NCBI GenBank assembly: GCA_002786025.1
Contig: NHNW01000084.1
Coordinates: forward strand, 62,001-126,000
Direction: 5' to 3'
Source: Zasmidium citrigriseum
Lineage: Eukaryota > Ascomycota > Dothideomycetes > Mycosphaerellales > Mycosphaerellaceae
DNA: 64,000 nt
The position numbers were made by a program, and so were the translations under genes. Under the pieces are notes generated by a model. The model was not told the origin of the DNA. It was given only the letters and a program-made list of their open reading frames with translations, and searched no databases. Below are positions 20,487-25,257 of this stretch, in pieces. Position 1 is the first letter of the stretch. Each line of letters starts with the position of its first letter.

Positions 20487-21613
20487 ATGTCAACTCCTCT
20501 TCTGCCTCTTGGAGAAGGCCCACGTGTAATTGTATACCATCAGACCCACCATGGCCCCGATAATGGACCACCAGTCAGCCTCTTGCCTCTGATCACGAAC
20601 GGGACGGGTGTGACACATGTGGTCGTGGCCGCAATCCATCTCAATGATCCACCTGGCAATATCACACTGAATGACCATCCTCCAGATCATGAGCGATTCA
20701 CGACACTCTGGGGCGAGGTGGCATGGATGCAGGCGAGCGGCGTGAAGGTATTGGGTCTGTTGGGAGGAGCAGCGAAAGGATCTTACGAGCGACTGGATGG
20801 CGATGACTTGGCTCGGGTTGAGTCCTACTATGTGCCTTTACGGGACATGATCCGAAAGTACCGCCTCGATGGTCTCGACTTGGACATTGAGGAGCCCACA
20901 TCGTTGCCTGGAACAGTACGGCTAATAGATCGGCTGCGAGCTGATTTTGGTCCGGCTTTCCTTATCACGATGGCACCGGTTGCTACTGCTTTGCTGCCGA
21001 ATCAGCCACACCTTTCCGGGCCAGCTTTTGACTATCGACTACTTGAGCAGATGCGAGGCTATGAGATCGCTTGGTACAATGTACGTCTGGCTATCTGTTC
21101 GAATGCTCTTCCATGCTGACTTCCACCCAGACACAATTCTACTGCGGCTGGGGAGATGCAAGCTCGACAGCATGGTACGACGCAATCATGAGCATGGGCT
21201 GGAATCCTAACAAGGTCGTCTTCGGACTCATCACGAACCCAGCAAATGGCCCAGGGCATGTCGAGTGGGCCAGGCAGGAAGGTGTGCTCAGAGCTCTGCG
21301 GCAGAAGTACCCTAACTTCGGTGGTGTCATGGGTTGGGAGTACTTCAACTCACTACCAGGAGACAAAGGCAGACCGTGGGAGTGGGCGGCGAACATGGCT
21401 CGGACGATAAGAACTCCGCTTCCTGCGCCACCGCCCATTCCGATCCGCCCGTATGGACAGCCAGCTCAGTTGCCGCAGCCGCCACACTCTTTCCCCGCTG
21501 AGAGCATACAGACACTGAAGGATCTTGGATTCAGCGACCAACAGGCTGTCGCGGCTTTGAATTCGACCGGAGGCAATGTGGAGTACGCTGCCGCATTTCT
21601 GTTCCAAGATTAG
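20487..21613 (+). CDS. Intracellular GH18 glycosidase with C-terminal UBA domain
   Basis: Protein of 358 aa from exons 20487-21080 and 21131-21613. The GH18 catalytic signature DGLDLDIEE is at about residues 132-140, with the proton-donor Glu last in DxxDxDxE. Downstream beta-barrel landmarks include FLITMAPVA, YEIAWYNTQFYCGWG and GGVMGWEYFNS. This resembles class III chitinase or endo-beta-N-acetylglucosaminidase-type GH18. There is no signal peptide, so action in the cytosol is likely. After a Pro-rich linker (about residues 285-312) the last 40 residues form a UBA-type three-helix ubiquitin-binding domain (IQTLKDLGFSDQQAVAALN). A glycosidase joined to a ubiquitin reader is unusual; it could act on glycoproteins in the cytosol, which is inference. 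Confidence 0.85.
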
Positions 21614-21776: not shown

Positions 21777-22427
21777 ATGGATCCCTCTCGTTCATCGTCC
21801 AACGACAAGCAATCCTACCGTTGCGTTCCAGAGAGGGAAGGAGGAACCTACTACTTTCGTCCCAACGGCATAAAAGAAGAACAGTGCACATACATCGGCG
21901 TCTCCGAGCTCATCGTCGGTGTTGGCGTCTACCTTCCCATCGACGAGAATCGCTGCTTCGTAGCTCATGTCAGCCCCATGGTAGACTTCCCCGTGGAGGG
22001 TCTCGAGAAGTTCAGGTGGTTGACGCCGGAAGAGGGCGCGGCAATCAGGACCAAGGTCCACGAGAAGCTTACCCAGAGTGCCAGAGCGCATGAGTGGAGT
22101 GCTCAAGACGTTCTGGACTGCCTCGCGAAGGGTGCGAAGAAAGCAATACTCGTCTGTCGTCGCTTGCTGGATAAACCAGGACGTCCTGGCCCGTACGTAA
22201 TCGAAGGCATCAACGACTTTCTGGGTCGACCGGGGTTCTTTGGGCCGGCGGACTGCGAGCAGGAGTCTAGGGGATTTGTTGTCGAGCATCACAGGGGGGA
22301 GGTATTCTTGTTTCCTCTGCTCGGCAAAGACGAGGATCTGCCCTTCAAAAAGCAGGATGTGTGGATGGAGTGGGAGGTTGTTGTTAGTCCGCAGAGATTG
22401 TTGTTAGTCCACAGCGATGAGGAATGA
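21777..22427 (+). CDS. CheD/CNF1-like family paralogue 1, predicted inactive
   Basis: First of four same-strand paralogues; single exon, 216 aa. It shares with the others the N-terminal GGTYxF block, the central YLPIDxxRCFxAH block, a middle helix ending (V/I)xxGIxDFLG, and a late GFVVEH block. Compared with the other three, the predicted catalytic Thr is Val42 and the predicted nucleophile Cys is Gly48, while His64 and the second Cys (Cys60) are kept. It is therefore probably not an enzyme, or has changed function. The ATG at 21777 matches the start position of the other copies; a longer in-frame frame upstream lacks family similarity. It begins only 163 bp after the GH18-UBA stop. Family naming is inference. 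Confidence 0.75.
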   Translation: MDPSRSSSNDKQSYRCVPEREGGTYYFRPNGIKEEQCTYIGVSELIVGVGVYLPIDENRCFVAHVSPMVDFPVEGLEKFRWLTPEEGAAIRTKVHEKLTQSARAHEWSAQDVLDCLAKGAKKAILVCRRLLDKPGRPGPYVIEGINDFLGRPGFFGPADCEQESRGFVVEHHRGEVFLFPLLGKDEDLPFKKQDVWMEWEVVVSPQRLLLVHSDEE

Positions 22428-22669
22428 ATGCAACACTTCGAAACAAGCCTTCAGCACTACGAGTGAGACATATCTTGCCATTTCAAGATCAAGTTCGACT
22501 AGGTGTGCGTATCATCCATGAATGAATTACAACTGAAGACATGTCTTTCCAGGAATGAGACCGGACTCGTCTGTGAACGGTTCATGCCGATCTCGAGAGC
22601 GCATTTGTGCTCGCATGCTGCCTCGAAAATACTTGAATCTCTTCAATCTCCCATACTCCCTCTACAATT

Positions 22670-23299
22670 ATGTTTGACACCAACAAAATCATCTACCGCT
22701 ACATCGACGAAGCCCAAGGCGGAACGTTCCACTTCAAAAGAAGATGCGTCCAAGAGCAGATTACTCACATTGGGACCAACGGCCTTATCACATGCGTGGG
22801 GGTCTACATTCCCATCGACGGCACCACCTGTTTCTTCGCCCATATTAGCGCATACGTGAATGATCCCGACGATCCATTTGGAAGGCTTGACGGTATTGGA
22901 TCAGCCAAGTCTCGCAGCATCCGTCGACAAGTCACTGAAAAACTCACAAACCATGCATTGCAGAACGGCTGGAGCCAAAGAGATGTCATCAGAAGTCTGA
23001 ACCAGGGCAGAAAGATCGTCTTGATGTGTCCAAGCTATACAATCGCAAGTGGGCGGGCTGGTCCTCATGTTGTTCAAGGAATCAAAGACTTCCTTGGAGC
23101 AATACCGGCGAATTCCATCCTAGAGTACTATGATGATCTGACTACCCATGGGTTGGTAGTGGATCACATTACCGGATCGATTACTCTGATTGTGAAGGGA
23201 CCGGAAGACGATGAAGATCGATTTGAGAGGTTTATGTTCCATCAGTCGAGGGAATGGAATACAGAGAAGGGATGGGAGATTCTAGGTAATTTGTCTTGA
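22670..23299 (+). CDS. CheD/CNF1-like putative cysteine hydrolase, paralogue 2
   Basis: Single exon, 209 aa, no signal peptide or membrane segment. Predicted active-site residues are Thr36, Cys42 and His58 in HIGTNGLITCVGVY...CFFAH. The Thr-to-Cys spacing of 6 equals that of bacterial CheD (Thr21, Cys27), and the Cys-to-His spacing of 16 is one short of CheD's 17. Later conserved blocks are a helix with ALQNGWSQRDVIRSL, then CPSY, VVQGIKDFLG and a GLVVDHITG strand pair that resembles the C-terminal part of CheD. CheD deamidates glutamines of chemoreceptors; fungi have no such receptors, so any substrate would be different. The array position and family blocks are seen directly; enzyme activity is inferred. 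Confidence 0.75.
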   Translation: MFDTNKIIYRYIDEAQGGTFHFKRRCVQEQITHIGTNGLITCVGVYIPIDGTTCFFAHISAYVNDPDDPFGRLDGIGSAKSRSIRRQVTEKLTNHALQNGWSQRDVIRSLNQGRKIVLMCPSYTIASGRAGPHVVQGIKDFLGAIPANSILEYYDDLTTHGLVVDHITGSITLIVKGPEDDEDRFERFMFHQSREWNTEKGWEILGNLS

Positions 23300-23516
23300 T
23301 GCTTCGGGCTATTACCAGGTCTTAAACAGACTAGATAGACTGTCACATGCTTGCAAAAGACGCAGTATAAGACAAAAGGACAAAGCCTTTCTTCTTGAAG
23401 ATTCAGAATGTAGCAAGTGCCTTCGATGGACCCACAAGGCTGCTCAAAATGGCACATAAGTAGAAGATGGCCTTCCACCACAGCTATTTGCAAAAGCTTC
23501 ACCATTATCGACGAAG

Positions 23517-24128
23517 ATGTCCACAACCAACGAAACACTCACATATCGTTACATCCCGGAAAGCTACGGTGGGACTTTCACCTTCGCAGATCAAGACGTC
23601 AATCACTGGATCGGCACAAGGGATCTGACGTCCTGCGTTGGCATATACTTACCCATCGACAAGGATCGCTGTTTCGTGGCTCATATCAACGCTCAAAGCG
23701 GAACAAATCTCGCAGAGCCTGGACTAGGATGGTCTCACGATCTCAGTCTCGAAGATCTCCAGAGCATCCGGCAACAAGTCTGCTCCAAGCTCCGAGCTCA
23801 TGCTATCAGGGAGGGCTGGACAGTCAACGAAGTGCGAAACTGTGGGCGAGGGATCATCATGTGTCCATGCGTGAATAACATGCCGGGTCATGCGGGTCAG
23901 GCTTGTATCGATGCGATTGAGGATTTCCTTGGAGATTTGAGTACGGTGGATCACTATGTCGATGATTTGGATATACAGGGGTTTGCTGTTGAGCATGGGA
24001 AGGGAAATGTGGAGATCATCCCACGATTGCACGATGAGAATGGCAAGGACATATGGGGAGATCCACCGGAATTCAAGAGTGAGATGGAGGCGAGCGCGAG
24101 ACTGGAGTGGAAGATTTTGGCTGACTAG
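23517..24128 (+). CDS. CheD/CNF1-like putative cysteine hydrolase, paralogue 3
   Basis: Single exon, 203 aa, the shortest copy. Predicted triad Thr34, Cys40, His56 in WIGTRDLTSCVGIYLPID...RCFVAH; the second conserved Cys is Cys52. The family blocks GGTFTF near the N-terminus, the AIREGWTVNEV helix, MCPC, AIEDFLG and GFAVEHGKG are all present in order. No targeting signal. It lies 217 bp after paralogue 2 and 403 bp before paralogue 4, so each copy probably has its own promoter. The intact motif makes this a predicted active member if the family is catalytic. Confidence 0.75.
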   Translation: MSTTNETLTYRYIPESYGGTFTFADQDVNHWIGTRDLTSCVGIYLPIDKDRCFVAHINAQSGTNLAEPGLGWSHDLSLEDLQSIRQQVCSKLRAHAIREGWTVNEVRNCGRGIIMCPCVNNMPGHAGQACIDAIEDFLGDLSTVDHYVDDLDIQGFAVEHGKGNVEIIPRLHDENGKDIWGDPPEFKSEMEASARLEWKILAD

Positions 24129-24531
24129 AGTGATGGCTGTAGTCTGCATAGTTCATGTCTGGAGTCAGGAGAGCTACGCAGAGGCAAGGCTGTGAATTGA
24201 CGCAAGGCAGTAAGTGATGTCTCAACATTTCAGTTCATTGTCTCTTCCAATGAAGCTGTCTGCTCGGCCGTAAGTCATTTTTCAAACAGCATGCAGGCTT
24301 CCGATCGTCTTTGACCCGGATGTTTTGGTTGCCTAGCAAATTGTCTCCCGTCTTTCAGAGACGTTGTAAAACATGCAAGGTGCCAATATAAGACGGCAGT
24401 AAGAAAGAAGATTTATCAGCCCGAAAGGACAATGGTTTGGAGTTTGCTGCTTAGCGTTCAAAAAGGCAACCTAAATCAGTTGAAATCCATTTTTCAAGAC
24501 CATAGCAGATCGAAAGTCGATCCGCTCCAGA
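24129..24531. other. Spacer within the tandem array
   Basis: 403 bp between paralogues 3 and 4, the largest gap in the array. I looked for a decayed fifth copy and found none of the conserved blocks. Confidence 0.4.
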
Positions 24532-25257
24532 ATGACAATTAAGTTCCTGTCCGTTGCTGAGGGACACGGCGGAACCTACTCCTTCAACAACAACGACGAA
24601 GTCAAGCACATCGGCACAAGCAACTGCAACACCTGCGTTGGCGTCTATCTTCCCATCGACAAGGATCGCTGCTTCTTTGCCCACATCAACGCCTTTGCTA
24701 GCTATGTCGCACCAAAATGGTCAGAGGAGGAACGAATGATGAAGGAACAGATGGTCCCAGTACGTGCTGGGATCGAAGCAGACGAGGGCGCGAAGATCAC
24801 GGTAGAGGTCGTGCAGAAGCTGAGTGAACATGCCAAAGACAACGGCTGGACCGCTCAAGATATCAAAGATCGGGTCCGGAAGGAGATTCACGAGATGATC
24901 ATCGTATGCCCATCATTGGGGAATGGACTGCCTGGGAACTATGTCATCGAAGGCGTTGAGAAATTCCTCGGGATGTCCGTACAGAAATGGGTGTACAAGG
25001 GGCAAGAGGGCTTCGTCGTTTCCAATTTGTCGGGCTGGGCAGCGCCGATTCCGAAGGGCAAGAAAGAGCAGATTTTGGCAAAGCATACATTAGAGGAAGT
25101 GGAGGAGTTCAAGAAGTGGATCAACGGAGAGCGTGCAAAGGGACACTGGGAGATTTCGGTTCGGCGGCCTGGGCGTCTAAATGGCACGCTTCGCTGGAGC
25201 GAAGTGGCGGAGCGAGGGAAGAGGACAGGAGGGGTAGACAGCCTACCTTATGTGTAG
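24532..25257 (+). CDS. CheD/CNF1-like putative cysteine hydrolase, paralogue 4
   Basis: Single exon, 241 aa, the longest copy. Predicted triad Thr29, Cys35 and His51 in HIGTSNCNTCVGVYLPID...RCFFAH. Compared with the others it has an insertion of about 20 charged residues after the active-site block (near residues 60-85) and a Lys/Arg-rich C-terminal extension beyond the conserved end. The helix HAKDNGWTAQDIKD, the CPSLGN and VEKFLG blocks and the GFVVSNLSG pair are conserved. No signal peptide. The next gene, a GH1 enzyme, is convergent, so the array ends here. Confidence 0.75.
   Translation: MTIKFLSVAEGHGGTYSFNNNDEVKHIGTSNCNTCVGVYLPIDKDRCFFAHINAFASYVAPKWSEEERMMKEQMVPVRAGIEADEGAKITVEVVQKLSEHAKDNGWTAQDIKDRVRKEIHEMIIVCPSLGNGLPGNYVIEGVEKFLGMSVQKWVYKGQEGFVVSNLSGWAAPIPKGKKEQILAKHTLEEVEEFKKWINGERAKGHWEISVRRPGRLNGTLRWSEVAERGKRTGGVDSLPYV

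Follow-up and report, generated by a model that had tools for sequence, protein, structure and literature searches.

Introduction

Deamidases of the CNF1/YfiH-like fold have been described in bacterial chemotaxis, among bacterial toxins and, in eukaryotes, as the N-degron enzyme NTAN1. According to PMC7022378, the catalytic triad is Thr21-Cys27-His44 in CheD (spacings Thr-Cys 6 and Cys-His 17) and Ser69-Cys75-His92 in NTAN1; an alanine at Cys75 or His92 abolishes NTAN1 activity, the specificity of this enzyme is provided by an appended C-terminal region, YfiH has a zinc site, and in yeast the job of N-terminal amidase is done by the nitrilase-fold Nta1. Here, we analyse four tandem genes (copies 1–4) in a 64,000-nucleotide stretch of the fungus Zasmidium citrigriseum (contig NHNW01000084.1, positions 62,001 to 126,000; hereafter the window), together with 17 further members of the same family elsewhere in the genome. 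A preliminary description of the window had proposed that the four genes encode CheD/CNF1-like cysteine hydrolases. The combined evidence tips towards single-domain, probably cytosolic CNF1/YfiH-like cysteine hydrolases that are structurally nearest to CheD and NTAN1, with glutamine/asparagine protein deamidation as their likely activity and with several paralogues acting as pseudoenzymes. Fold and chemistry are already known; the fungal many-copy version, including members without the triad, is absent from the family libraries searched. A 21-copy fungal expansion missed by the profiles used would represent an additional eukaryotic branch of probable protein deamidases, and it illustrates that a family undetected by profile searches can surface through structure.

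Predicted fold and comparison with known enzymes

Two template-free models were obtained from different query sequences and the same four-sequence set. The better one, of copy 2, reached a pLDDT of 72.7 and a pTM of 0.76, and a Foldseek search of the PDB with this model returned seven matches at E ≤ 0.001, namely six NTAN1 chains and CheD, with NTAN1 as the best match (E 9.7e-5). The first, poor model gave 18 matches at E ≤ 10 and none at E ≤ 0.001. In a second-look structural alignment CheD was ranked first for both models, and for the better model the best 25 rows were CNF1/YfiH-like cysteine hydrolases. With NTAN1 and CheD as top structural matches and such enzymes filling the second-look rows, a CheD/CNF1-type fold is supported at the level of predicted models. 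Thus, the fold proposed in the preliminary description was recovered rather than an unrelated one, although NTAN1, a eukaryotic enzyme of the same fold and the best Foldseek match, had been absent from its candidates. In the copy 2 model Thr36 lies in strand 33–37, Cys42 begins strand 42–48 and His58 is found in strand 53–60.

The comparison with CheD (PDB 2f9z_C), the bacterial and archaeal chemoreceptor glutamine deamidase, reveals both likeness and difference. The Thr-Cys spacing is 6 in both, and the Cys-His spacing is 16 in each of copies 2, 3 and 4, as had been noted earlier, versus 17 in CheD; moreover, the fungal family lacks the Gly-Ser ahead of the Cys and is about 50 residues longer. 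We know of no CheD-type chemoreceptors in fungi. NTAN1 (PDB 6a0e, 6a0f), the protein N-terminal asparagine amidohydrolase, is eukaryotic and shares the order of the triad, spaced 6 and then 17, but has Ser where the family has Thr. It is a single gene in mammals, compared to 21 family copies here. The NTAN1 C-terminal region over the active site spans approximately residues 205–310 (our estimate from residue positions in PMC7022378), and copy 2 is too short to hold it, with just 34 residues, modelled at low confidence, after strand 171–175. The catalytic domains of CNF1 and BLF1, internal glutamine deamidases that target Rho GTPases and eIF4A, match more weakly than CheD and NTAN1, and YfiH/YlmD (DUF152, PF02578) also ranks structurally under these two. 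Five predicted structures of giant viruses (Moumouvirus, Tupanvirus, ChoanoV1, Fadolivirus) in BFVD match at E ≤ 0.001 and 10–17% identity (A0A6N1NPS2, A0A5B8IFF4, A0A2P1EL59, A0A5B8HVT9 and A0A7D3V927), one of them annotated as a CheD chemotaxis protein; a scan of viral contigs with a pattern from the four-copy alignment gave 67 stretches and no confirmed relative.

A divergent family of 21 genes

The open reading frames (ORFs) of copies 1–4 share one orientation and are each free of interruption, in agreement with the preliminary description, and the sequence blocks quoted there are present in the copies. The four proteins align along the core at 32–35% pairwise identity in the 21-row alignment (31–38% in four-row alignments). 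Used as query in its own genome (44.4 Mb, 148 contigs), copy 3 detected copy 2 at E 4e-29, copy 1 at E 9e-22 and copy 4 at E 4e-19, and the four are homologous. This search returned 21 places including copy 3 itself, and stop codons were found in none of the matched stretches. A four-copy profile applied to 645 of the fetched regions gave 21 open frames at E ≤ 1, at the same places, and two distant members used as queries gave 17 and 20 matches, all within the known 21, with no further place; these genome counts are lower bounds. The window's contig (C132) carries 16 of the members, C1 carries four and C97 one. On C132 they form arrays of nine consecutive genes at 12.3–21.6 kb (eight on the + strand, one on the − strand) and of three at 53.1–55.9 kb (− strand), the third array being the four window copies.

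Pairwise identity within the family peaks at 48% and has a median of 26%. In view of this maximum and of the 32–35% among the window copies, the recent duplication suggested earlier is rejected; the copies are old or fast-changing. With the start codons chosen by us, the proteins measure 196–278 aa and most members start close to the first strand, which leaves no room for delivery domains of the kind found in the CNF1 toxin. A simple hydropathy scan over the first 33 residues from these starts found a strongly hydrophobic N-terminus, as a sign of secretion, in none of the 21 members (highest 9-residue mean 1.63). On this ground the members are probably cytosolic, and a secreted form of the effector envisaged previously finds no support. 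In one member without the triad (L005:1144-2148) the N-terminus is extended by a Pro/Thr/Ser-rich segment that includes a basic KRKRS stretch. For copy 1 an in-frame ATG is also present upstream, at 21576.

Active-site conservation and branch lengths

In the 21-member alignment the Thr is present in 18 members, the Cys in 13, the His in 17 and all three in 12, so that the expected conservation of Cys and His holds for most of the family and fails in the remainder. The full triad is found in all five genes on C1 and C97 versus seven of 16 on C132. In copy 1 Val and Gly occupy the positions of the Thr and the Cys, and at most three of the four window copies can therefore be cysteine enzymes. Trp202, Phe55, Ala57 and Gly17 (copy 2 numbering) are invariant in all 21 members, including the nine without the full triad. 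At copy 2 residues 54 and 120 there are two further cysteines, which are shared by 19 and 18 of the 21 members, respectively, and by eight and six of these nine.

A tree of the 21 members was built without the triad columns. The end branches of triad-bearing members average 0.96 compared to 1.84 for the others (Mann–Whitney p 0.0004; p 0.003 within C132 alone), in a test that takes no account of kinship and in which poorly aligned divergent rows could inflate branches. Longer branches without the triad would be expected if members bearing it were functional enzymes and proteins that lost it became free to change, and several members are best read as faster-evolving pseudoenzymes.

Sequence searches

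The copies were not matched by Pfam. Among the 21 members, four Pfam families matched one member each (best E 0.032). These matches were judged to be due to chance, as were the hits obtained in NCBIfam (CopP, E 0.017; TIGR00003, E 0.025; CspA, E 0.12), PHROGs (best E 0.064) and PDB sequences (E 0.42 and 1.2); a profile search of the PDB sequences gave none. At E ≤ 10, and within HMMER's filters, the CheD profile (PF03975) matched neither the four copies nor any of the 21 members; it had no match in the genome, and it detects matches in five of 14 control genomes. With the NTAN1 profile (PF14736) none of the 21 members was matched; searched exon by exon, the genome gave a best E of 0.5 (C105), under the cut-off, in a check that had no positive control, since the 14 control genomes all stayed below it as well. 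The YfiH/YlmD profile (PF02578) matched no member and no place in the genome at E ≤ 0.001, with detection in eight of 14 control genomes. Membership of the CheD, NTAN1 or YfiH families, the first of which had been proposed from motif and spacing, is thus not supported by these family profiles.

The hhalign probability was <1% for the family against CheD, for the family against NTAN1 and for CheD against NTAN1 alike (two of 15 CheD sequences dropped, one a fragment and one a duplicate; NTAN1 rows of 280–400 aa only, 93 kept of 120 listed and 511 found), and a global run was no better. Because the accepted CheD–NTAN1 pair was missed too, hhalign is uninformative for the family. A motif hidden Markov model of the 12 triad-bearing members was run against 17 CheD/NTAN1 sequences (four NTAN1 rows), 624 unrelated ORFs and 3,400 shuffles; 15 of the 17 were among the 2,005 matches listed, with a best rank of 7, and were not separated from the rest. 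Among 5.8 billion proteins, copy 3 gave 39 candidates, none at E ≤ 0.01, and the 21-member alignment 3,053 candidates, none at E ≤ 1, in a search that requires shared 5-residue words (at most 100 used) and is insensitive to remote relatives. The sources of this collection include nr, UniRef and EukProt, and fungal proteins are probably within it. In a limited literature search no fungal case appeared among the titles listed (10 of 224 papers), and an earlier description in print is possible.

Proposed activity and alternatives

For copies 2–4 the Cys at the start of its strand (42 in copy 2) would be the nucleophile, activated by the His of the next strand (58), which in turn would be oriented by the Thr (36). 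Attack of the Cys on a side-chain amide would release ammonia and form a carboxylate, as in CheD and NTAN1, the most likely substrate bond being the side-chain carboxamide of a Gln or Asn in a protein. As the proteins are too short for an NTAN1-type C-terminal cover, the site would more likely be open and CheD-like, which makes internal Gln/Asn residues the more likely targets. Several paralogues that have lost the Cys, His or Thr and kept the fold residues, copy 1 among them, are probably binding or regulatory pseudoenzymes, which may associate with the targets of the active members or with the active members themselves. A family in which some copies have the active site and others lack it offers a built-in comparison, and the identity of the substrate would tell whether fungi use Gln/Asn deamidation for regulation or defence.

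The strongest competitor, which we nevertheless regard as unlikely, is that the family took over the fold but not the catalysis, its members being binding or scaffold proteins and the Cys-His pair of 12 members a remnant. Several observations weigh in its favour or against active deamidases. Thr, Cys or His has been lost in nine of 21 members, while the four invariant residues are kept throughout and no matched stretch is interrupted by a stop. The triad is no more clustered on the tree than in shuffles: its state changes seven times on the best tree and 6–8 times in bootstraps, and 313 of 500 shuffles are as low, albeit 12 of 18 inner branches are weak and the strongly supported ones force just one change. 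Profile merging with MAFFT does place Thr, Cys and His on the CheD triad, using either 12 or 21 members; still, the same placement was obtained in 18 of 100 permutations keeping only the triad columns and in 91 of 100 keeping the hairpin with the rest permuted. Towards NTAN1 three, two or none of the three residues were matched, varying with the rows (those with ≥40 core gaps excluded in one run, 15 rows in another), with controls at 1/100 and 5/100. Conversely, retention of the triad in 12 of 21 members despite a median identity of 26%, its presence in all five C1 and C97 genes and the longer branches of genes without it speak for deamidases with derived pseudoenzymes.

N-terminal amidohydrolases acting in protein degradation, like NTAN1, would explain why chains of this eukaryotic enzyme lead the Foldseek matches. 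This assignment appears quite improbable given the short C-terminal part of copy 2 and the lack of any PF14736 match over the cut-off in the genome, a check without positive control; furthermore, a housekeeping task would not be expected to need 21 divergent copies. With yeast using Nta1, it should be noted that the genome has 23 nitrilase-family matches, none identified as Nta1. Equally improbable in our estimate are YfiH/YlmD-like small-molecule hydrolases with an amide, nucleoside or cell-wall fragment as substrate, considering the lower structural rank of YfiH/YlmD and the missing PF02578 match. Deamidation of internal protein residues is retained as the preferred activity, and its biological role is more speculative. 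A lineage-built intracellular repertoire of deamidases and pseudo-deamidases, much of it in arrays by mutated repeats, could serve recognition or conflict with viruses, transposons or fusing partners, with dead copies as decoys or regulators; we consider this specific scenario improbable, if slightly less so than the NTAN1-like and YfiH-like assignments.

Genomic setting

The coordinates of the window genes are collected in Table 1.

Table 1 Family members in the window and predicted active-site stretch of copy 2
Feature	Position	Strand	Remarks
Copy 1	21777-22427	+	216 aa; Val/Gly at Thr/Cys places, His64 kept; fold residues kept; predicted pseudoenzyme
Copy 2	22670-23299	+	209 aa; Thr36-Cys42-His58; protein of the better structure model
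Copy 3	23517-24128	+	203 aa; Thr34-Cys40-His56
Copy 4	24532-25257	+	241 aa; Thr29-Cys35-His51; longer C-terminal tail
Copy 2, predicted active-site stretch	22775..22843	+	Codons Thr36 22775, Cys42 22793, His58 22841; from model secondary structure and family alignment

The nine-gene array (L009, C132:11500-21499) is flanked by RIF1 (Pfam Rif1_N, E 7e-128) on one side and RAD4 (E 1.5e-41) on the other, and an extra 198-aa frame without Pfam match is located on the RIF1 side. Both RIF1 and RAD4 are housekeeping genes. Within the C132 sequence examined, a strong resemblance to the products of repeat-induced point mutation (RIP) is seen at 32–52 kb and in the terminal 4 kb at either end (L031-L033, L035), with TpA/ApT of 1.8–2.4 and a substrate index of 0.01–0.10, compared to 0.39–0.66 and 1.20–1.46 in gene-rich blocks of the same contig; the GC content falls to 0.23 in the RIP-like stretches. 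Hence, the arrays are located near mutated repeat DNA on a chromosome that is not obviously dispensable. The accessory region proposed in the preliminary description is consistent with the RIP-like DNA beside the arrays and at odds with the RIF1 and RAD4 neighbours.

Directly upstream of copy 1, positions 20487-21613 (+) hold an apparent GH18-UBA fusion that would span an intron: the first frame matches a GH18 glycoside hydrolase (PF00704, E 5e-10), and the next one has a ubiquitin-binding UBA domain (PF00627, E 3e-10) at its end.
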